A stretch of 49,126 nucleotides of DNA from Bacteroidota bacterium. Its GTDB lineage: Bacteria; Bacteroidota; Bacteroidia; Flavobacteriales_C; GCA-002722245. Below, in pieces: positions 11,211 to 22,579 of this stretch; positions within the stretch are counted from its first letter, which is position 1, and each line of letters starts with the position of its first letter. The notes below the pieces were generated by a model, which saw only the letters and a program-made list of their open reading frames with translations, was not told where the DNA came from and made no database searches. The DNA is taken from positions 4,946 to 54,071 of the forward strand of contig JAPLEZ010000036.1 of NCBI GenBank assembly GCA_026390935.1, written 5' to 3'. Both the position numbers and the translations under genes were made by a program.

Positions 11211-11316
11211 TCCTGAAAAAATTTCAGGATGACATTACTGATCCAGTGTTTGAAGTGTACGATCATTTTATTTTTTGAGTTTGGTTCACATTTGTCATCC
11301 TGAACTTGTTTCAGGA
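11211..11316. repeat. Interspersed palindrome, TCCTGAA..TTCAGGATGAC family
   Basis: Inverted arms 11211-11233 and 11294-11316 (23 bp, 2 mismatches) flank a 60-nt loop between ccoH and the SafE-like gene. A second copy lies at 40344-40423, with related loop sequence (TTGAAG..., GGTTCAC). Confidence 0.8.
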
Positions 11317-11747: not shown

Positions 11748-13169
11748 TTAGTGTTTTATTTTATTTTTATGGTGACGTGGCGCCATAAATACTGTGGCCA
11801 CTTCTTCCAGTTTTCTTTCTTTGGTCATTACTTCCAATCTCAATGGTGTTGTTCTTTTTTGAATTTGAAGGGTATCTATTTTAATCATCAATATACCTTC
11901 AATTTTTTGTTCGGGTTGCAACATGATTTCTTTAGTTCCTATGATTTCAATTTCGCCTTTTATGTCGAGTAAATTAAAATGGATAGGAACTTCTTCATTG
12001 GTTTTATTGACAATTTTGTATTTGTACAAATTGCTGATGCGCCCGTCGGTCATCACAGTGAACATTTGTCCGCGTGAGCGCAGCACCGATGTTTCTACTT
12101 CTCCACGCACAAAAATCATCACAGCAAGTATCACTAAAATTAATGCTAAGAAGCCAGTGTACGCCTTCATTCTTGCAGTGAATTCAAAAGGCAATCCTTT
12201 TGAAATCTGATTTTCAGAAGCGTATTTAATTAAGTTCGTTGGCTTGTTAATGTTAAGCATTACTTCGTCGCAAGCATCAATACAAGCGGTGCAATTCACA
12301 CACTCCAGCTGAGTGCCATTGCGGATGTCAATTCCTGTTGGACAAACCACCACACATTGTTTGCAATCAATACAATCGCCAGCAGAAGAGGAGCGAAGTT
12401 TTGTGTTTTTTTCTCGCGGCTCACCTCGCTTGCTATCGTAGCCAACAACAATTGTGTTGCTGTCGAGCATAACTCCCTGGAATCTTCCATACGGACAAAT
12501 ATTCGTGCACACCTGTTCGCGTAGGAAAGCAAATACGCCATAAAACGCGAAGGAAAAAATAGTGATCGTAACTAGTCCGCCAATATGTTCTGCCGGATTG
12601 TCCAATTGAATTTTTATCAATTCATTTTTTCCAATAATGTACGCTAAAAAAGTATTAGCTACCAGATACGAAATACCAAAGAAGACAACATGTTTAAACG
12701 TTTTCTTTAAAATTTTATCCGAGTTCCATTTTTGTTTATTGAGTTTTTTTTGTGCGATGTGATCTCCTTCAATCCATCGTTCAATTTTACGAAAAACCAT
12801 TTCCAGGAAAATGGTTTGCGGACAAATCCATCCGCAAAAAATTCGACCGAAAACAACGGTAAATAAAATGATGAATAAAATGAAGGCAATCATGGCAAAG
12901 AGGAAAATATGAAAATCCTGCGGCCAAAAAATTTGTCCGAAGATGATAAATTTTCTTTCCATGATATTGAAAAGAAGCAATGGTTCGCCGTGTAGGTAAA
13001 GGTGCGGGAGTCCGAATAAAACCGCCAGCAAGAGGTAACTTACCAGAGTGCGGTATTTGTACAACTTTCCTTTTACCGCTTTTGGGTAAACCCATATTCT
13101 TTTGCCTTTCTCGTCAACTGTTGAGAGGTGTCCTCGAAAGTCATCAGAATATGTTTCTTGGTTTTCCAT
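11748..13169 (-). CDS. ccoG: Cytochrome c oxidase accessory protein CcoG (FixG/RdxA)
   Basis: 473 residues. It has several membrane helices in the N-terminal 220 residues, a CGWICPQTIF motif and a second CPYGRFQGV motif. A two-cluster ferredoxin region follows with CIDCKQCVVVCP and CVNCTACIDACDE. A C-terminal Ig-like FixG domain (about 360-470) closes the protein. CcoG is the copper (cupric) reductase used in cbb3 maturation. A long palindrome at 13181-13282 separates it from ccoP. Confidence 0.96.
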   Translation of the reverse strand: MENQETYSDDFRGHLSTVDEKGKRIWVYPKAVKGKLYKYRTLVSYLLLAVLFGLPHLYLHGEPLLLFNIMERKFIIFGQIFWPQDFHIFLFAMIAFILFIILFTVVFGRIFCGWICPQTIFLEMVFRKIERWIEGDHIAQKKLNKQKWNSDKILKKTFKHVVFFGISYLVANTFLAYIIGKNELIKIQLDNPAEHIGGLVTITIFSFAFYGVFAFLREQVCTNICPYGRFQGVMLDSNTIVVGYDSKRGEPREKNTKLRSSSAGDCIDCKQCVVVCPTGIDIRNGTQLECVNCTACIDACDEVMLNINKPTNLIKYASENQISKGLPFEFTARMKAYTGFLALILVILAVMIFVRGEVETSVLRSRGQMFTVMTDGRISNLYKYKIVNKTNEEVPIHFNLLDIKGEIEIIGTKEIMLQPEQKIEGILMIKIDTLQIQKRTTPLRLEVMTKERKLEEVATVFMAPRHHKNKIKH

Positions 13170-13180
13170 TTTTTAAGTTG

Positions 13181-13282
13181 AGGGCGATAGATCCTTCCTT
13201 CGTCAGAAGGACATTACCGGCCCATTTTGTTTACACTATGAATAAGTAATGTCGTCCTAACGAAGGAAGGATCTATCGCCCT
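13181..13282. repeat. 37-bp inverted repeat element between ccoP and ccoG
   Basis: Arms 13181-13217 and 13246-13282 are complementary with three mismatches and a 28-nt loop. The core is GATAGATCCTTCCTTCG and its inverse. It occupies almost the entire ccoP-ccoG gap, so the operon transcript would carry a very stable stem here. Confidence 0.85.
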
Positions 13283-14272: not shown

Positions 14273-16459
14273 TTATTTTTTTGCTTTTGGATAAATGTCG
14301 GTTCCTAATCTTTGTAAGTAAGCGATGATGGCTACCATTTCAGTTTCCTCCAATTTCATTTCACCTGCAGCAATTTTATCGTAGGTTTCATCCGAAATCA
14401 TGAGTCCGTCAATGTTATCGTACAATGGTTTCGCCACTTCTTTTGCTTGCAAGTTCATGTCGCCAATGGCTTTGCTTTCATATCCTTCGGGATAAGGCAC
14501 GCCCATTTTTCTCATGGCTGTGATTTTTTTCTCTAGCAATTTAGAATCTAGTTTATTCAACAACCAAGGGTAACGTGGCATGATGGAGCCGTCGGAAACT
14601 GAGTCGGGAACCAACAAGTGATTGAAGTGCCAATCGTTTGGTTTGTACAAGCGACCAGTTTTTACACCTTCACGCGCTAAATCCGGACCGGTTCTTTTTG
14701 ATCCCCATTGGAAAGGGTGATCGTACACAAATTCTCCTGCTTTGGAATATTCGCCGTAGCGTTCAGTTTCCCAACGGAAAGGTCGAATCATTTGTGAGTG
14801 ACAGTTGTAGCAACCTTCACGGATGTATAAATCTCTACCTTCCAATTCCAATGGTGTATATGGTTTTACACTGGTGATGGATGGAATATTCGATTTTACT
14901 AAGAAGGTTGGAATCATTTCAATGGCACCTCCAATTAAAATTACTACAACACTTAACAACAACATTTGAATCGGACGTCTTTCAATCCATCTGTGCCAGT
15001 GTTCTTTTTCGTGTTTCACATTTGCTTTCGCTAATGGATAAGCTTCTGCTTCTTCGTTGGCCAGTAGTTTTCCTGATTTAACTGTTTTGTATAAGTTGAA
15101 AAACATCAACAAAACACCTACGATGAAAATTGTTCCACCAATGGCTCTTGTTGCATACATCGGAATAATTTGCGTTACTGTATCCAAAAAGTTTTGATTG
15201 GTTAAAGTACCATCAGCATTGAATTCTCTCCACATTTGGTTTTGTACAATACCCGCCCAATACATAGGAACTGCGTAAAACAAAATACTTGCAGTGGCTA
15301 ACCAAAAGTGCCAGTTGGCCAATTTTTGAGAATACAATTTGGTTTGAAAAATTCGTGGAATGATGAAATATAAAATCGCGAAAGTCATACAGCCATTCCA
15401 TCCCAATGCACCTAAGTGAACGTGACCAACTACCCAGTCGGTGTAGTGCGTCATTGCATTTAAAGATTTTAAGGATAACATCGGACCTTCGAAAGTGGCC
15501 ATTCCATATGCTGTTACAGCAACTACCATGAATTTTAAAACTGCATCATCACGTACTTTGTCCCAAGCACCGCGCAGTGTCAATAATCCGTTGAGCATAC
15601 CACCCCATGATGGAGCGATGAGCATGATGGAAAATACAGTTCCTAAGGATTGCGCCCAATCAGGCAAAGCTGTGTACAACAAGTGATGCGGGCCAGCCCA
15701 GATGTAAATAAATATCAGCGCCCAAAAGTGAATGATGGATAAGCGGTAGGAAAATACTGGACGATCAGCTGCTTTAGGAACATAGTAATACATCAATCCA
15801 AGGAAAGGAGTAGTGAGGAAAAATGCCACAGCGTTGTGACCGTACCACCATTGCACCAGCGCATCTTGCACACCAGCATACATGGAGTAACTTTTGAAAA
15901 ATGAAACAGGTAATTCAACAGAGTTTACAATGTGCAAAACAGCAACTGTTGCCCATGATGCAATGTAAAACCAAATGGCAACGTATAAATGTTTTACTCT
16001 TCTTTTAATGATGGTGCCCAACATGTTCCATCCGAAAATTACCCAAACCAAGGCAATAGAAATATCAATTGGCCATTCTAGTTCAGCATATTCTTTACCA
16101 GTACTGATACCTAAAGGAAGCGTAATTGCAGCTGCAACAATAATGAGCTGCCAGCCCCAAAAATGAATTTTACTTAAGGTATCGCTGTACATTCGGGCTT
16201 TCACCAATCTTTGCAGCGAGTGATAAACACCGGCAAAAATAGCGTTACCCACAAAGGCGAAAATCACTGCATTGGTATGCAATGGTCGTAGTCTTCCGAA
16301 GGATAAAAACGATACTCCGTTGGTCATTTGCGGCCAAAACATTTCGATGGCGCAGATCAATCCTACTAAAAATCCGATCAGCCCCCAAAGGGCCGTAGCG
16401 AACAAAAAGTTACGAACGATTTTGTTGTCGTAGGAAAATTTTTCCAGTTGCATTTCCAT
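14273..16459 (-). CDS. ccoNO: Fused cbb3 oxidase catalytic subunits CcoN-CcoO
   Basis: 728 residues. The N-terminal part is CcoN: low-spin haem ligand His61 (PLHTNAV), CuB ligands His208 (WYGHNAV) and His258/His259 (AGPHHLL), the cross-link Tyr252, and His346/His348 (VVGHVHLGALGWNG). From about residue 495 a membrane anchor leads into CcoO with one haem-c site (CYNCH, Cys550-His554) and a likely Met ligand in SIMPRYPW. The N-O fusion is typical of Bacteroidota. It reduces O2 to water at high affinity in the inner membrane. It starts 2 nt after ccoS. Confidence 0.97.
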   Translation of the reverse strand: MEMQLEKFSYDNKIVRNFLFATALWGLIGFLVGLICAIEMFWPQMTNGVSFLSFGRLRPLHTNAVIFAFVGNAIFAGVYHSLQRLVKARMYSDTLSKIHFWGWQLIIVAAAITLPLGISTGKEYAELEWPIDISIALVWVIFGWNMLGTIIKRRVKHLYVAIWFYIASWATVAVLHIVNSVELPVSFFKSYSMYAGVQDALVQWWYGHNAVAFFLTTPFLGLMYYYVPKAADRPVFSYRLSIIHFWALIFIYIWAGPHHLLYTALPDWAQSLGTVFSIMLIAPSWGGMLNGLLTLRGAWDKVRDDAVLKFMVVAVTAYGMATFEGPMLSLKSLNAMTHYTDWVVGHVHLGALGWNGCMTFAILYFIIPRIFQTKLYSQKLANWHFWLATASILFYAVPMYWAGIVQNQMWREFNADGTLTNQNFLDTVTQIIPMYATRAIGGTIFIVGVLLMFFNLYKTVKSGKLLANEEAEAYPLAKANVKHEKEHWHRWIERRPIQMLLLSVVVILIGGAIEMIPTFLVKSNIPSITSVKPYTPLELEGRDLYIREGCYNCHSQMIRPFRWETERYGEYSKAGEFVYDHPFQWGSKRTGPDLAREGVKTGRLYKPNDWHFNHLLVPDSVSDGSIMPRYPWLLNKLDSKLLEKKITAMRKMGVPYPEGYESKAIGDMNLQAKEVAKPLYDNIDGLMISDETYDKIAAGEMKLEETEMVAIIAYLQRLGTDIYPKAKK

Positions 16460-16461
16460 AA

Positions 16462-16692
16462 TTACTCTCTTGGTTTTTTGGTTAGTTGATCAGAAATTAA
16501 AATTGAACTTTCGTCTGGTCGAATAGTAGAGAATGATTTTTTATTGCCTACTATTTCATCGTCAAAAAGAATGCGCACTGATGGTGTGTAATCGTCTTCA
16601 AACTGATCGGTTTTTATTGCCCAGTAATAGCAGCCCACAAAAAAGGCCGCTACGCTTAAACTGATAATGATTAAAAGGAATAAAACACTCAT
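16462..16692 (-). CDS. ccoS: cbb3 assembly protein CcoS
   Basis: 76 residues. One membrane helix near the N-terminus is followed by WAIKTDQFEDDYTPS, the CcoS signature (W..k.gQFdD...p). It is needed for cofactor insertion into cbb3. It is first in the oxidase operon, downstream of an FNR-type operator at 16762-16773. Confidence 0.93.
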   Translation of the reverse strand: MSVLFLLIIISLSVAAFFVGCYYWAIKTDQFEDDYTPSVRILFDDEIVGNKKSFSTIRPDESSILISDQLTKKPRE

Positions 16693-16708
16693 TTGCGTTA
16701 CTTTGCCG

Positions 16709-16716
16709 TAAAAGTA
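16709..16716 (-). promoter_or_regulatory. -7-like element TACTTTTA for ccoS operon
   Basis: Minus-strand TACTTTTA matches TAnnTTTG at five of six fixed positions. Its centre is exactly 55 bp from the TGATATAAATCA dyad, predicting a start about 10-15 nt before the ccoS ATG. Confidence 0.5.
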
Positions 16717-16761
16717 GGGGGCTTAGGTCTTTTTAACTTTGAGGGGGATCAGGGGTGGATA

Positions 16762-16773
16762 TGATATAAATCA
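16762..16773. promoter_or_regulatory. FNR/FixK-type operator TGATATAAATCA upstream of ccoS
   Basis: A perfect TGAT-N4-ATCA dyad centred 75 bp 5' of the ccoS start. Together with the element at 16709-16716 it fits a class I activator position near -62. The likely ligand is the response-regulator/CRP fusion encoded at 19891-20949. Confidence 0.6.
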
Positions 16774-16824
16774 GGAAAAGGGAAATTGAATTGAATTTTA
16801 CGGGCATTGGACCGCATACTAACT

Positions 16825-16845
16825 CTCCTCCTTTTCAAGGAGGAG
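16825..16845. repeat. Hairpin CTCCTCCTT-TTC-AAGGAGGAG
   Basis: A perfect 9-3-9 stem followed by GTGCCTGAAAGGCGAGGTGGTT, a sequence style of common Bacteroidota intergenic repeats. It lies between ccoI and ccoS. Confidence 0.6.
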
Positions 16846-16879
16846 TGCCTGAAAGGCGAGGTGGTTATAGATGAATTCT

Positions 16880-16986
16880 CCTCGCGCGCGTCTCTGACGC
16901 GTGCGGATTTATCTTCAGCAATTGCATTGCGATTAGGCATTATAAATGCCTTTGTAAATGCGCACGCGTCAGAGACGCGCGCGAGG
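16880..16986. repeat. GC-rich 26-bp perfect inverted repeat downstream of ccoI
   Basis: Arms 16880-16905 and 16961-16986 are perfectly complementary (core GCGTCTCTGACGCGTGCG). The 55-nt AT-rich loop contains a nested AGGCATT-ATA-AATGCCT stem at 16935-16951. The GC content is far above the surroundings. It ends 10 nt from the ccoI stop and could serve as its terminator. Confidence 0.85.
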
Positions 16987-16996
16987 GCTTAGCTAT

Positions 16997-18745
16997 TTAT
17001 ATTGCAAACTTCCGGCGGTACGCAAAGTAGGTTCCGCCAACCGCTAATGATACAACGGTAATAGAACTTATCGGCATCAATACCGCTGCAAAAAGCGGCG
17101 TTACTGCTAAAGTGCAAGCGAAGTACATGCCCACAATGTTGTATAAAAATGACAAAGCCAAACAAGCGTAAATCACTTTCAATACCGAGCGGGAATAAGC
17201 AATCATTTCAGCCAATTCAGTGAAATGTTTTCCATCCAGGATGATTTGTGCCGATGGGTAAAACGAATTTACATTGTCGGAAACTGCAATACCAACATCG
17301 CTTACTTTTAACGCAACACCATCGTTAATGCCATCGCCAACCATCATCGTTTTTCCGCTTTCAGCAAGCATTTGAATGTATTGTTTTTTGCCTTCCGGAT
17401 TTTGATTGAAGTGCATATTTTTCCCAAAGTATTCCGTCAGTTGCGGATTTTCATCTTTGTGATCTCCGCTGAGTAAATAAATATTTGCTTCTGCTGAAAG
17501 ACTGTTCAGCATTTTCCACAAACCTTCACGGTAGCGACTTTCAATAAAGTAATAGCCTTTGTAATTTCCATTGATGGCGATGTGAACTACCGAACCCTGT
17601 TTTTTGTTTTCAATGGTATTGATCGCTTTGGTGAATGTTGCGGATCCAATGCACAAATTGTTGTTTTTGAATTTTGCTTCAATTCCTTTTCCTTTTATTT
17701 CTTCGTAAGCATCAGGTTCAATGCTTTTAAGGTGTTTTAGTTTATCGCTTAAAATTCGGCTCAGCGGATGATTGCTGGAATTTACTGCAGAATAGATCAT
17801 TGATTGTTCTTCTTCCGATAAGGTATTTCCCACATAAGTCACTTCTACTTTTTCGGCAACGGTGATGGTTCCGGTTTTGTCCAACACGATGTTTTTTATG
17901 CCTGCTACTTTTTCAATAACGAAGGCATTTTTTAAATAAAATCCTCGGCGCGATAACAAGCGTATGGCGTTGCCCAATGCCATGGGAGCAGATAGGGCGG
18001 AGGCACAGGGACAAGTAATGAGCAGCACGGCCGTGAGTGCGTTGAACGCTCCCGACACGTTGTTGTTCATCCAATAATACGAGAATGCCGAAAGGGCAAT
18101 GAGCAAAACCAAAGCAGTGAAATATCCGCTGAATTTTCCGGTGAGCGATTCCAACACTTCTTTTTTTCCACTCGATTTTACTTCGTCCCACAAACACGCC
18201 AAATAACTTTTGTCGGTTTTTTTTAGCACTTTAAATTCTCCGCTTTTACCAACGATTTTGCTGCCTGCATAAATTTTATCGCCTGCGTTAAAACGCTTGG
18301 CCATGGCTTCACCAGTGATGAAACTTAAGTCGGCAGTGATGCTGTCGGAAATAACCTCTGCATCGCAAGGAATAATTTCTTCGTTTTTAATTTTAATAAA
18401 ATCACCTTCCTCTAAGTTTTCAATCAGTACACGCTCTTCACTAGAATTTGTTTTTTTTAAAACCGACAAAGGGAAATACGAATACAATTCGCGTTCAAAT
18501 GAAAACTGATTGAAGACTTTATTTTGAAAATATCTTCCGGTGAGTAGTAAGAAAACCAATCCGGCCAAAGTATCAAAGTAGCCCGATCCTGTGGCGCTCA
18601 ATACTTCGTACATGCTTCTTCCGAAAAGCGCTATAATTCCTAATACCAGAGGAACATCAATACTTATTTTTTTGACTTTGAGTGCGCTGATGCTGTTTTT
18701 AAAGAAGTCGCTCCCCGAGTAAAAAAGTATAGGGATAATCAACAA
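16997..18745 (-). CDS. ccoI: Copper-transporting P-type ATPase CcoI, C-terminal fragment
   Basis: 582 codons from a TTG at 18745; the open frame extends to 18766. It carries nearly all ATPase motifs: TGEA (actuator), CPCASALSAP (metal site), DKTGTIT (phosphorylated Asp), SSNHPLS (HP motif) and MVGDGINDG (hinge). Membrane helices lie at both ends. It continues the same frame as the 47-codon stretch before the TAA at 18767-18769, so the product is severed from its metal-binding N-terminus. CcoI/FixI delivers copper for the CuB site of cbb3. Whether this fragment is made or works alone is unknown. Confidence 0.85.
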   Translation of the reverse strand: MLIIPILFYSGSDFFKNSISALKVKKISIDVPLVLGIIALFGRSMYEVLSATGSGYFDTLAGLVFLLLTGRYFQNKVFNQFSFERELYSYFPLSVLKKTNSSEERVLIENLEEGDFIKIKNEEIIPCDAEVISDSITADLSFITGEAMAKRFNAGDKIYAGSKIVGKSGEFKVLKKTDKSYLACLWDEVKSSGKKEVLESLTGKFSGYFTALVLLIALSAFSYYWMNNNVSGAFNALTAVLLITCPCASALSAPMALGNAIRLLSRRGFYLKNAFVIEKVAGIKNIVLDKTGTITVAEKVEVTYVGNTLSEEEQSMIYSAVNSSNHPLSRILSDKLKHLKSIEPDAYEEIKGKGIEAKFKNNNLCIGSATFTKAINTIENKKQGSVVHIAINGNYKGYYFIESRYREGLWKMLNSLSAEANIYLLSGDHKDENPQLTEYFGKNMHFNQNPEGKKQYIQMLAESGKTMMVGDGINDGVALKVSDVGIAVSDNVNSFYPSAQIILDGKHFTELAEMIAYSRSVLKVIYACLALSFLYNIVGMYFACTLAVTPLFAAVLMPISSITVVSLAVGGTYFAYRRKFAI

Positions 18746-18766
18746 TATATTGAGGTAACGGAAGAG

Positions 18767-18918
18767 TTATTTAAAGTCATCCGAAACTTCTTCCAGTGCT
18801 AAATATTCGGGGAAGCTCAGCAGCATGATGTTGCCAAAACAAAATCCGGCTACACCAATTTTCCACAATTGTTTTTTGTAGGTATTGTTGTTTTCGGGTG
18901 TCCCCGATTTTTTTTGAA
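18767..18918 (-). pseudogene. ccoI: Disrupted junction of ccoI (frameshift plus in-frame TAA)
   Basis: Between the two ccoI fragments, the +1 frame encodes KSGTPENNNTYKKQLW... FGNIMLLSFPEYLALEE... DDFK, clearly the expected CcoI linker and first helix. It joins the upstream frame only if the A8 run (T8 at 18908-18915 on plus) had nine bases. It then meets TAA at 18767-18769 and continues in the same frame into LFRYLN and the C-terminal fragment. Two separate lesions are therefore needed to explain the break. Confidence 0.8.
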
Positions 18919-19365
18919 GGATGGTTCGTAACCAATTTTAGTAAGTAGTAACGCAATTTCTTTTAGTGATACAATGCGCGGATCATAGGAGATGGCGGCT
19001 TCTTTCAGTGAAAAATTTACATTTACAGTAAGTATTCCTTCTTTGAGTTTGTGTAAATTTTCCAAAAGGTAAATGCAGGAACTGCAATGAATTTGTGGTA
19101 GTACCAAGCGCACTTTTTCTAGCTCAGTACTTTTAAAATCCAGGAGTTTATCTGCAGCTTCTTCAAGTTCCAAAAAAGCAAAGGCATCGTTTTTCACCAA
19201 AGGAGAAAAGCCTGGAGCTTCGGTGAGGGAATAGTAAGCTTGTAATCCGGATTTGTTGAGCAAATGATACACATTTACACAGGCAGCACAGCAAAAGAGG
19301 TGCTCGTCGGCAGTGAATTTTTCTTTCACTTCGTCGCCGCAATGAAAACAGTTGATCGTTGTCAT
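18850..19365 (-). CDS. ccoI: CcoI N-terminal fragment (Cys-rich and HMA metal-binding domains)
   Basis: 171 residues. It starts with the CcoI-type Cys-rich domain (CFHCGDEV, then FCCAACVNVY), followed by a heavy-metal-associated domain with HCSSC near residue 92 and ending IGYEPSFKK. After the A8 run the frame gives an unrelated 20-residue tail to the stop at 18850. Expected CcoI length is about 780-800 residues. It lies 56 nt downstream of the 126-residue gene and probably shares its promoter. Confidence 0.88.
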   Translation of the reverse strand: MTTINCFHCGDEVKEKFTADEHLFCCAACVNVYHLLNKSGLQAYYSLTEAPGFSPLVKNDAFAFLELEEAADKLLDFKSTELEKVRLVLPQIHCSSCIYLLENLHKLKEGILTVNVNFSLKEAAISYDPRIVSLKEIALLLTKIGYEPSFKKNRGHPKTTIPTKNNCGKLV

Positions 19366-19421
19366 GTTGTAAAAGTGAGAAAGAGCAGGGGCTTGTGATA
19401 TGACGAAAATCAGTTATTCGT

Positions 19422-19802
19422 CTATTTCATGTCAGGATTGACTTTGCTAAGTTCTTCTCCTTGTTGGTTTTGATCTTTTAAGGTCCAGCTGTCGGTAACA
19501 GTAGTTTCCAGCCATGCTTTCCCCGATTTGCGAAAAATTTGTACGCCTAGTCCGTACTTACTTCCAAAACTTTGTTCCACTTCGTTCACTGTCATATCGG
19601 GGGTGATGGTGATTTTTCCGCGCTTAAGAATACTTCTGCATTCCTTTAAAGTTTTGTTGCCGTGCTTGAGGAATATTTTTGCCGATGCGCAGCCGGGCTT
19701 ATGAATGCTGGAAAAAAACTCAATTTTCAAATATGGGAATAGGTTGTTGAATTCTTCTTGAATATCAAATATTTTTCTGTTATCGTTGATGCTGATTTCC
19801 AT
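19422..19802 (-). CDS. Conserved small protein upstream of ccoI, function unknown
   Basis: 126 residues, soluble, no signal or membrane helix. A mixed alpha/beta start (IFDIQEEFNNLFPYLKIEFF) is followed by HKPGCASAKIF, a basic central stretch and VEQSFGSKYGLGVQIFRKSG. I do not recognise a named family. Its position, behind an FNR-type operator and directly before ccoI, suggests a role in, or at least co-expression with, microaerobic respiration. One Cys only, so metal binding is doubtful. Confidence 0.7.
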   Translation of the reverse strand: MEISINDNRKIFDIQEEFNNLFPYLKIEFFSSIHKPGCASAKIFLKHGNKTLKECRSILKRGKITITPDMTVNEVEQSFGSKYGLGVQIFRKSGKAWLETTVTDSWTLKDQNQQGEELSKVNPDMK

Positions 19803-19828
19803 CTTTACACAATTATTTAAGTTGGAAG

Positions 19829-19836
19829 TAAAGTTA
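19829..19836 (-). promoter_or_regulatory. -7-like element TAACTTTA for the 126-residue gene/ccoI
   Basis: Minus-strand TAACTTTA matches TAnnTTTG at five of six fixed positions. It is centred 55 bp from the TGATTGAAATCA dyad and about 30 nt before the start codon. No -33 TTG is evident, consistent with activator dependence. Confidence 0.5.
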
Positions 19837-19881
19837 AAGCATCATTGTTTTTGAGGTAATGATGAGGCTTATTAATTGCCC

Positions 19882-19893
19882 TGATTGAAATCA
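19882..19893. promoter_or_regulatory. FNR/FixK-type operator TGATTGAAATCA
   Basis: A perfect TGAT-N4-ATCA dyad, extended by one pair to C...G, centred 85 bp 5' of the 126-residue gene. It overlaps the stop codon of the upstream response-regulator/CRP gene (TGA at 19891-19893). Confidence 0.62.
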
Positions 19894-20949
19894 GTTTTTC
19901 ATTTTGGAGAGTTTCTCCATCGATAAAATGATGATAGAACTTCCTTTAATATCAACGATACCTTCGTCTTTAAAGTCGCTTAAAGTACGAATGGTTGTTT
20001 CGGTTGCGGTGCCAGCTAAGTTGGCCAAATCTTCACGAGGAATATTCATGCTAAACTGTGCATCACCATCTTTTTTGTATCGTTTGCTCAAGGTAGAAAG
20101 TGCTTCGGCAACTCTCTTTCTAACGGAGTTGTAAGCCAGTTTTAATAGCTGTTCTTCCTTCTCCTCCAAGTTGTCAGAAATCATTTTGATGAACTTTCTG
20201 GAGATTTCAGCATTCTTGTAGATCAACGAATAAAAATGTTCTTTGGGAATCAAACATACTTCGGCATCTTCTAAAGCTGCTGCTGAATCGGAGTATTTGT
20301 CTTCTTCTAACAATGCCAGATATCCAAAAAAGTCACCTTCCTTATACAATCCGGTAATCAACTCTTTGCCTTGGTCGTTGCTGCGGAAAGTTTTTACTTT
20401 TCCTTTATTAATGAAGAAAATTCCTTTAGGGTAATTGCCTTCAAAATATATGCTTTCTTTTTTCTTGTGTGTTCTGATTTCGTTTTCTTCCGACAGTTTT
20501 TTGAGGTCTTCAAATTCTTTTGCGCCCAGCAAAAATTCGGAAAGTCCTTGCGCATTTTTAGCGAATTCTGTTTTGGCTACTTCCGATTTTTTCAATCTGC
20601 TTTCAATGGCGCTCAGCAATTCAATATTGTCGAAAGGTTTTGTTAAGTAATCATCGGCACCCATTTCCATTCCTTTGCGCAACTCGCTTCTTTCGGCTTT
20701 AGCCGTTAAAAAAATAAAGGGAATAGTTGCTGTTTCATTGTTTTTAGAAAGTAGGTGCAACACGCCATAACCATCTAAAACAGGCATCATTATGTCGCAA
20801 ATAATTAAATCGGGTTTTTCTTTTAATGCAAGTTCAACACCTTCTTTTCCGTTTTTAGCGGTAACAACATTGTAATTGGAAAGCGAAAGAATTTCTGCTG
20901 TGTTTTCTCGCACGTCGTTGTTGTCTTCAATTAATAATATTTTTTTCAT
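19891..20949 (-). CDS. Response regulator fused to CRP/FNR-type transcription factor
   Basis: 352 residues. Receiver domain 1-120 (Asp52 in CDIMMP, Lys104 in TKPF); cNMP-binding-like beta-barrel about 155-260; helix-turn-helix 275-345 with recognition segment TATETTIRTL (Glu317, Arg321, equivalent to the Glu and Arg that read TGA half-sites in FNR). The barrel lacks the phosphate-binding Arg (FFGYLALLEEDKYSDSAAA), and there is no FNR-type Cys cluster, so input is probably phosphorylation. Its start overlaps the kinase stop by 1 nt (TAATG). Likely activator of the cco operons, whose promoters carry FNR-type sites. Confidence 0.92.
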   Translation of the reverse strand: MKKILLIEDNNDVRENTAEILSLSNYNVVTAKNGKEGVELALKEKPDLIICDIMMPVLDGYGVLHLLSKNNETATIPFIFLTAKAERSELRKGMEMGADDYLTKPFDNIELLSAIESRLKKSEVAKTEFAKNAQGLSEFLLGAKEFEDLKKLSEENEIRTHKKKESIYFEGNYPKGIFFINKGKVKTFRSNDQGKELITGLYKEGDFFGYLALLEEDKYSDSAAALEDAEVCLIPKEHFYSLIYKNAEISRKFIKMISDNLEEKEEQLLKLAYNSVRKRVAEALSTLSKRYKKDGDAQFSMNIPREDLANLAGTATETTIRTLSDFKDEGIVDIKGSSIIILSMEKLSKMKN

Positions 20950-22151
20950 TATTGAGGTAGTGTTATAGTAAATGTAGTGCCTTTGTTTTCTTCGCTTTCA
21001 AAATGGATAGAGCCATTCATTAATTCGGCGTATCTGGCTACAATGTTGAGTCCCAAACCTGTTCCTTGAATATGAGTAGCGTTATGTCCGCGAAAAAATC
21101 GCTCAAATAAATTTTTCTGATCGGCTTTTGAAATGCCAATTCCATGGTCTTTCACCGAAATTTTCACCGACAAATTTTTTACCTCGGAAATCACTTCAAT
21201 ATTTTTGCCTTCGGGTGAAAATTTAATGGCATTCGACATCAGATTAAACAAAATATTTTTCAATATTTTTTTGTCGAGGGACACAATTTCTTTTCCTATG
21301 TGCTGATGGATTATTTGATGAACTGTGGTCAATTGCTGCATTTCACCAATGGTGTCATTGATGAAAGATTTTAAATTCATTTCTTCGGGAGCGTTTTCTA
21401 CTTTGCCTTCTTCGAGCTTGCTAACGGATAAAAAATCATTTAAAATATCAGTGAGGTTGTTGATGGAGGTTTTTATTTTCCCAACGTGCTTGTCTTGATT
21501 TTGCTTGTCGTTTTTTTCGCCATACAAAGTAACCAGCGACAATGACGACATCATGGTGGTGAGTGGTGTTCGAAATTCGTGAGAAGCCATTGAAACAAAA
21601 CGCGATTTCATTTCATTGAGTTCCTTTTCTTTTTCCAGCGCGTCTTTCAGTTCTTTCTTGGTTTTTTCCAATTCTTCCACGGCTTCTTCCAAAATCATGG
21701 TTCGGTTTTTCACCTGCCTTTCCAGTTCAGTAGAATAGGTTTTCAATTTTTCCTCTGCATGTTTTCTAATAGAAATATCAATGATGAAAGCAATTACGAA
21801 TTTTCCTTCATCGCTGGAGTAGGGACTCAAACTTATTTCTACCGGAAATTCAGTGCCATCTTTCTTTAGTCCGTAAAGCTGCATGCCTGCACCCATTGAT
21901 CGGGCGTGTGGATTTTGGTGAAATTTATCACGATGACCGATGTGCTGTTGGGCCAGTCGTTTTGGAACCAATACTTCAATTTTTTTCCCCAGCAATTCGT
22001 CCCTGTCGTAGCCAAATAATTTTTCAGCGCTAGGGTTAATTCTGGTAATTTCACTTTTGTCGTTCGTTACCAATATTCCTTCAGTAGCGAACAAAAACAG
22101 TGCTTCTGTTCCTTCGGAGTGGTTCATTTTTATTTTTAATGAATTATTCAT
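20949..22151 (-). CDS. PAS-domain sensor histidine kinase
   Basis: 400 residues, soluble. The PAS domain (about 15-135) contains KLFGYDRDELLGK and MGAGMQLYGLKKDGTEFP, close to FixL-like PAS sequences. A coiled coil (140-180) precedes HisKA with SHEFRTPL (His191) and a HATPase domain with NAIKF, DHGIGI and GTGLGL. It phosphorylates, by operon logic, the overlapping response-regulator/CRP fusion. Haem binding by the PAS is possible but not demonstrated: the FixL proximal His context is not clearly conserved. Position next to cbb3 genes argues for an oxygen or redox signal. Confidence 0.92.
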   Translation of the reverse strand: MNNSLKIKMNHSEGTEALFLFATEGILVTNDKSEITRINPSAEKLFGYDRDELLGKKIEVLVPKRLAQQHIGHRDKFHQNPHARSMGAGMQLYGLKKDGTEFPVEISLSPYSSDEGKFVIAFIIDISIRKHAEEKLKTYSTELERQVKNRTMILEEAVEELEKTKKELKDALEKEKELNEMKSRFVSMASHEFRTPLTTMMSSLSLVTLYGEKNDKQNQDKHVGKIKTSINNLTDILNDFLSVSKLEEGKVENAPEEMNLKSFINDTIGEMQQLTTVHQIIHQHIGKEIVSLDKKILKNILFNLMSNAIKFSPEGKNIEVISEVKNLSVKISVKDHGIGISKADQKNLFERFFRGHNATHIQGTGLGLNIVARYAELMNGSIHFESEENKGTTFTITLPQ

Positions 22152-22191
22152 CTAATTTAATAAATATGAACACAGTACGGTAAAAATGAAA

Positions 22192-22314
22192 TTATTTGTT
22201 TTCGCGATTATTTTTGCTGTTCACCAATGCTTTTATTGAGCTTGCAAGGGCAAATAGTGACATAATCACAATTACGGCAAGAATTCCAAGTATGAAATAA
22301 TGAGCTGTATTCAT
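22192..22314 (-). CDS. 40-residue single-helix membrane protein
   Basis: A short frame MNTAHYFILGILAVIVIMSL... ending SKNNRENK. One membrane helix (about 8-27) is followed by a charged tail. It is co-directional, 5 nt downstream of the 58-residue gene and 40 nt before the kinase gene. No family recognised; gene status rests on frame, composition and tight operon spacing. Confidence 0.6.
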   Translation of the reverse strand: MNTAHYFILGILAVIVIMSLFALASSIKALVNSKNNRENK

Positions 22315-22319
22315 AATAA

Positions 22320-22496
22320 TTATTTAGAAGTTTTCATTCCAACCATCATTGCAGCTAAAGTTCCTGCTACGGTCAATAGAAACATTGCCATGGTGAACAA
22401 TGGTTTTGTAATATCAGCTTGTACATAAGCTAAACGGAAAGGGCCAAGAATTACTACTGTAGCAATTACCAAGGCAGTCATAGTGTTTTTATTCAT
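22320..22496 (-). CDS. 58-residue two-helix membrane protein
   Basis: The frame MNKNTMTALVIATVVILGPF... MVGMKTSK has two hydrophobic helices (about 6-26 and 33-54) joined by a short polar turn with QADITK. It is the first gene of the kinase/regulator operon and has an operator/-7 arrangement just upstream. No family recognised. It could be a membrane input or a modulator for the otherwise soluble kinase. Confidence 0.6.
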   Translation of the reverse strand: MNKNTMTALVIATVVILGPFRLAYVQADITKPLFTMAMFLLTVAGTLAAMMVGMKTSK

Positions 22497-22513
22497 GGTT
22501 TTTATTTTACTTC

Positions 22514-22521
22514 CAAAGTTG
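22514..22521 (-). promoter_or_regulatory. -7-like element CAACTTTG for the kinase operon
   Basis: Minus-strand CAACTTTG matches TAnnTTTG at five of six fixed positions. Its centre is 55 bp from the dyad at 22566-22579, the same spacing as at the two cco promoters. Confidence 0.5.
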
Positions 22522-22565
22522 CAAATAGAAGGACTAAAGCGAAATGAGGCAGGTCAGATGGAGAT

Positions 22566-22579
22566 ATGACGGTGGTCAT
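22566..22579. promoter_or_regulatory. CRP/FNR-type operator ATGAC-GGTG-GTCAT
   Basis: A perfect 5-4-5 dyad with TGAC half-sites in place of TGAT, upstream of the operon that encodes the CRP/FNR-type regulator. Autoregulation is the simplest reading. Confidence 0.5.

Follow-up and report, generated by a model that had tools for sequence, protein, structure and literature searches.

We found that three promoter regions in the window, the whole stretch of 49,126 nucleotides of Bacteroidota DNA analysed here, share one architecture: TGA-N6-TCA-N10-TGA-N6-TCA, then N23, then TAnnTTTG, 65 bp in all. We consider it likely that these sites are copies of a composite low-oxygen promoter, read by a fusion of a receiver domain and a CRP-type protein (receiver-CRP fusion) under a FixL-like kinase. 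Through this kinase and fusion, the module probably switches on high-affinity oxygen respiration. The module's architecture, its conservation and the genes behind it can be read from the sequence itself, as can the intact state of the regulator's receiver and of its TGA-reading residues. With somewhat less confidence, we favor a broader proposal in which one fixed cis-module, with dimers at -41.5 and -63.5 ahead of TAnnTTTG, is the low-oxygen switch of the class, its input having been swapped between Fe-S FNR and the FixL-like kinase with its receiver-CRP fusion while the promoter was kept.

Tandem dyads precede the cbb3 and regulator operons

The first-pass annotation had described three FNR-type dyads, each 55 bp, centre to centre, from a -7-like box. 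The positions of the three dyads and of the three boxes are correct, as is the distance at all three sites, and all three sets serve minus-strand genes. Half of the element had been missed, namely a second, proximal dyad that lies exactly 22 bp nearer the gene at all three sites when read on the coding strand; the three dyads first noticed are the distal (outer) members of tandem pairs.

The first module (P1, 16709..16773, minus strand) precedes ccoS-ccoNO-ccoQ-ccoP-ccoG-ccoH and consists of a distal dyad at 16762-16773, a proximal dyad at 16740-16751 and a -7 box at 16709-16716. Its coding strand reads TGATTTATATCA-N10-TGATCCCCCTCA-N23-TACTTTTA, with a predicted +1 near 16704 and the ccoS ATG at 16692, and its identification also draws on the orthologous ccoS/ccoNO promoters of relatives. 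The second module (P2, 19829..19893, minus strand) precedes a 126-aa open reading frame and ccoI, and has its distal dyad at 19882-19893, proximal dyad at 19860-19871 and -7 box at 19829-19836 (TGATTTCAATCA-N10-TAAGCCTCATCA-N23-TAACTTTA). Its proximal dyad carries one mismatch, TAA for TGA, and the TGA of its distal dyad (19891-19893) is the stop codon of the receiver-CRP gene. The third module (P3, 22514..22578, minus strand) precedes genes for a 58-aa protein, a 40-aa protein, the PAS kinase and the receiver-CRP fusion, with its distal dyad at 22567-22578, proximal dyad at 22545-22556 and -7 box at 22514-22521 (TGACCACCGTCA-N10-TGACCTGCCTCA-N23-CAACTTTG). This position before the regulator's own genes predicts autoregulation.

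A weaker module (P4, 19370..19434, minus strand) stands directly before ccoI, with the proximal dyad TGATTTTCGTCA at 19401-19412, a degenerate distal dyad at 19423-19434 and the -7 box CACTTTTA at 19370-19377; the same type of arrangement precedes ccoI in L069 and L072. For the window, leaders of 12 to 22 nt are predicted. A doubtful fifth candidate before an ion-channel gene (P5, 22976..23040, minus strand, score 15/18) was not upheld, the nearest match in L053 lying about 1.5 kb from the ion-channel gene and not at the same place.

Predicted class II geometry

In Flavobacterium psychrophilum, mapped transcription starts show that the sigma-A box TAnnTTTG spans -12 to -5 (PMC9723704). Because the 23-bp gap between proximal dyad and box is constant, this mapped box position predicts that the proximal dyad is centred at -41.5, as in class II promoters, and the distal one at -63.5. 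A class I promoter with one dyad near -62, as had been suggested, is not supported, the constant feature being the missed dyad at -41.5. In class II activator-dependent CRP/FNR promoters, the activator dyad occupies the zone of the -33 element. No -33 TTTG is visible at the window's modules, where the proximal dyad fills that zone.

Across 133 sites, the start codon lies a median of 21 nt from the -7 box, and +1 is A in 53%. Columns conserved outside the search pattern include TGAY and RTCA in both dyads and a T at -35. We also observed that some modules serve divergent genes, since the tandem dyads are palindromic, with a rightly spaced -7 box on both sides (L060, for example at 11252/11285, L180, L184 and others).

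Conservation within one class of Bacteroidota

Orthologous promoters in related genomes conserve the dyad and its 55-bp distance, and at the level of sequence the two-site module is conserved across many families of one Bacteroidota class. In 37 loci surrounding the regulator in related genomes, dyads lay 22 bp apart in 37 pairs and 23 bp apart in 4, with any other distance seen 0-2 times; a few distal dyads sit at 23 bp and not 22. In the same loci, the gap between dyad and box spiked at 23 bp, a TAnnTTTG box following at this distance 26 times.

The conservation counts span many metagenome assemblies and are raw counts over related genomes, uncorrected for kinship: the 65-bp pattern, allowing at most two mismatches, gave 356 matches in 60 genomes of the class, compared with 8 for the reversed control. 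With one mismatch, the pattern was present in more than half of the 49 same-class genomes of a phylum-wide draw, and the 149 genomes of other classes gave five single matches, near background. At ccoNO, 23 of 28 loci (27 genomes) had a module 93-453 bp upstream with a score of at least 14/18. No module precedes ccoNO in G045, G048 and G054 or either of the two copies in G029, which counts against our preferred explanation.

Genes behind the module

An FNR-type, fixed-spacing cco regulon had been proposed from the window alone. Such a regulon exists and is conserved in relatives, and cco genes do lie behind the modules, but the gene set is wider than cco: it comprises ccoS-ccoNO, usp, the PAS kinase, ccoI, HSP20 and hemerythrin. 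Because part of the sites came from sampling around the regulator and cco loci, the following counts describe the sample and not genome frequencies: the first genes behind the sites (n=138) included 18 universal stress proteins and 14 CcoS/FixS, together with PAS kinases, c-type cytochromes, P-type ATPases, DnaJ, HSP20 and hemerythrin, and 16 of the second genes carried a COX1/CcoN domain. Together these genes form a set typical of low oxygen.

In the window, the first gene behind P1 is ccoS (16462..16692, minus strand), whose same-position orthologues are FixS/CcoS, followed by a ccoNO fusion encoding cbb3 oxidase subunits I/II (14273..16459, minus strand). The copper P-type ATPase gene ccoI (16997..19365, minus strand) is interrupted in this assembly and could be a pseudogene or reflect an assembly error; it is open in the close relative G002. 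Its lesions fall within 18750-18930, where the reading frame shifts near 18915, following an A-run, and meets an in-frame TAA near 18767.

Several further features lie near these genes. The 126-aa protein behind P2 (19422-19802) had no Pfam or NCBIfam match; in many relatives it is again found close to cco or regulator genes. The 58- and 40-aa proteins that lead the kinase/regulator operon (22320-22496 and 22192-22314) are apparently membrane-bound, and a homologue of the former lies directly 5' of ccoI in L067 and L068. Between P1 and ccoI, a long near-perfect inverted repeat (16860-16990; CTCGCGCGCGTCTCTGACGCGTGCG ... CGCACGCGTCAGAGACGCGCGCGAG) is possibly a terminator or a mobile palindromic repeat.

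A FixL-like PAS kinase as candidate sensor

The likely sensor is a PAS histidine kinase (20949..22151, minus strand) with a FixL/DosP-like PAS domain. Among solved structures, this domain is nearest to DosP and FixL. The proximal heme His (FixL H200 / DosP H77) is present and is kept in 39 of 39 relatives, while the distal Arg (FixL R220 / DosP R97) is Met in the window and Arg in 15 of 39 relatives. The stretch containing the His is found as well in PAS domains for which no heme binding is known. Given the nearest structures and the retained ligand His, and with Met at the distal position, we consider it likely that the kinase binds heme and senses oxygen.

The Met, which is a point against our preferred explanation, and the variation of this residue among relatives fit an alternative in which the kinase senses a non-oxygen signal such as redox state, nitric oxide or another ligand, and the regulon is not a direct oxygen regulon. 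We regard this as possible yet improbable, because the nearest solved relatives are heme oxygen sensors, the ligand His is invariant among the relatives, the regulon consists of cbb3, usp and hemerythrin, and cbb3 rises at oxygen limitation in F. psychrophilum (PMC9723704).

Proposed mechanism and the role of the distal dyad

In the mechanism that we propose, low oxygen would lead the PAS kinase, probably a heme oxygen sensor like FixL, to phosphorylate the receiver of the fusion, which would then dimerise and bind both sites cooperatively. Two CRP/FNR-type dimers would sit side by side on one DNA face, 22 bp or about two helical turns apart, the proximal one at -41.5, in the place of a -33 element, before the phylum's own -7 box. 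From this proximal position, the fusion would make class II contacts with RNA polymerase at the Bacteroidota -7 box and turn on stress genes and the cbb3 oxidase with its assembly factors, as well as the fusion's own operon through P3, giving positive feedback. We infer that the receiver is phosphorylated, that oxygen is the signal, that the kinase binds heme, that the dimers bind cooperatively and that they activate transcription.

The distal -63.5 dyad can be absent. Since three Flavobacteriaceae loci keep the proximal dyad only, the -41.5 site appears to be the core of the promoter and the distal site a common addition. These single proximal sites would also suit a feedback repressor at the distal dyad, where the -41.5 dimer activates and the -63.5 dimer blocks the RNA polymerase alpha C-terminal domain when the regulator is abundant. 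A precedent is offered by the anaeroboxes of rhizobial fnrN, which have opposite roles, though there the proximal one represses (PMC7888657). We find repression from the distal dyad unlikely, as the two dyads are equally well conserved, the A/T core is better in the distal one, and 36 of 78 proximal dyads have a perfect partner. The better A/T core instead suggests that the distal dyad would anchor the first dimer and help the second to bind.

The receiver-CRP fusion as the likely reader of the sites

The fusion (19891..20949, minus strand) joins a receiver, a cNMP-binding domain and a Crp HTH, as recognized from Pfam, its recognition helix and its invariant residues (D52, T82, K104, E317, R321). 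Its receiver is that of a response regulator, with the phospho-acceptor set D52, T82 and K104 invariant in 30 homologues. The recognition helix keeps E209 and R213 of FNR and has Ile in place of S212, so that it departs from the E209-x-x-S212-R213 helix of FNR proper; this replacement fits the loss of the TT before TGA. The positions aligned to the FNR cysteines (C20, C23, C29, C122) are L, C, F and C, and those aligned to the cAMP contacts of CRP (E72, R82, S83, T127) read Y, S, D and K. We therefore rejected the fusion both as an Fe-S FNR, for lack of the Cys set, and as a cAMP-type CRP, for lack of the cAMP residues.

The first-pass annotation had implicated the adjacent response-regulator/CRP gene in the fixed-spacing regulon, and both the co-occurrence of module and fusion and the adjacency of module and gene support its involvement. 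The pattern was carried by 31 of 31 genomes with the fusion and by 2 of 14 without any protein of this subfamily (at a cut-off of E<=1e-20); 11 of the 15 genomes with only unfused relatives had one to eight sites. The association between fusion and sites gave a Fisher p of about 3e-9 (hand calculation, G059 included). Every genome with a ccoNO match in the sample has the fusion or an unfused relative. Moreover, 25 of 68 regulator genes have a site at most 200 bp behind the stop codon, where about 0.015 would be expected for each, and in six genomes (the window's P2, L053, L054, L059, L207 and L208) the TGA stop of the regulator is the first TGA of the distal dyad. The fusion likely reads the sites. 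Among the genera in which it was identified are Jiulongibacter, Chitinophaga, Mucilaginibacter, Arcticibacter and Sphingobacterium. Culturable carriers are Mucilaginibacter psychrotolerans and Arcticibacter svalbardensis, in both of which tandem sites lie directly behind the fusion gene, as well as Chitinophaga filiformis and Jiulongibacter sediminis. The genome of the window has a second receiver-CRP fusion, 51% identical (L084, G000:C108, about 12128-13267), with a tandem module of its own and a P-type ATPase-like gene behind it.

The sites could instead be read by a classical Fe-S FNR-type protein, with the fusion only modulating them or controlling other genes. Two FNR-like proteins of this genome, L004 and L005, carry the N-terminal Cys set and the E..R pair, and their presence counts against our preferred explanation. 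Likewise, genomes with cbb3 and without the fusion have an unfused FNR-like protein that carries the N-terminal Cys set, shares the fusion's recognition helix and adjoins the same module. We nevertheless judge an Fe-S FNR reader here to be rather improbable. The helix of L004 and L005 differs (GTNSEQVIR and GTKSEQLIR, compared with GTATETTIR in the fusion), and the module adjoins the fusion gene in many genomes. In addition, G003 and G058 have sites (4 and 24 matches) and no such protein among their HTH_Crp_2 matches, the fusion being their only HTH_Crp_2 protein with both TGA-reading residues (E..R). That Cys-bearing unfused proteins with the same helix adjoin the module suggests that sensors were exchanged while the promoter was kept, with the fusion as the probable reader in the window.

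Comparison with chance expectation

A single dyad proves little, since TGA-N6-TCA by itself shows only a mild excess in the window (35 compared with 20.2 +/- 4.2 expected). Matches to the full composite, requiring at least 16/18 fixed bases and at least 11/12 in the dyads, number 3 in the window, and 200 dinucleotide shuffles of the window yielded none. The whole genome has five pairs of perfect dyads at the module distance, of which two are in this window and two on contig C108, one of the latter just behind a regulator paralogue. Coincidence of dyads and boxes in an AT-rich genome, which the modest enrichment of single dyads and the distal TGA doubling as a stop codon might suggest, was rejected as exceedingly improbable given the 0/200 shuffles, the 356 matches against 8 across genomes and the spike in dyad spacing.

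Comparison with known systems

Oxygen control of gene expression appears little described in Bacteroidota. In the open-access literature, covering FNR motifs and FixL in Bacteroidota as well as tandem FNR sites, we found no description of the module, in line with the first-pass view that a fixed-spacing cco regulon had not been reported; this absence is not proof of novelty. A CRP/FNR survey that included Flavobacteriales and Saprospiraceae applied a MalR motif to them (PMC8510549). A precise, searchable 65-bp promoter with a candidate regulator, sensor and gene list makes the class's low-oxygen regulon predictable and testable. It also offers a natural series in which to ask what keeps two neighbouring CRP-type dimers at a single exact spacing and how a promoter outlasts the replacement of its sensor.

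The system resembles the rhizobial FixL-FixJ-FixK and hFixL-FxkR-FixK cascades (PMC7888657), which likewise combine an oxygen-type PAS kinase, a response regulator, a CRP/FNR-type activator and cbb3 genes controlled via TGA..TCA dyads (anaeroboxes). Here, in contrast, receiver and CRP-type protein form one polypeptide, the intermediate transcription of fixK is skipped, and the dyads are in tandem with fixed spacing before the Bacteroidota -7 box. The window kinase keeps the proximal His of FixL kinases and has Met for the distal Arg, short of full FixL membership. Compared with Fe-S FNR proteins (E. coli FNR, rhizobial FnrN), the fusion shares the CRP/FNR fold and the recognition-helix residues E209 and R213, but lacks the Fe-S Cys set and has a receiver domain, whereas its unfused relatives elsewhere have N-terminal Cys.

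In F. psychrophilum, a member of the same phylum, cbb3 oxidase and heme-synthesis genes rise at low oxygen, and the main text of the paper on its response to oxygen limitation makes no mention of Crp or FNR (PMC9723704). The cbb3 response is shared, whereas the sampled Flavobacteriaceae loci show a single proximal dyad only, unlike the window. Finally, the module shares with the class II FNR/CRP promoters of Proteobacteria a dyad centred at -41.5. It differs from them in its sigma-factor box, which is TAnnTTTG, in its TGA half-sites, which lack the leading TT of FNR, and in most cases also in the additional dyad at -63.5.
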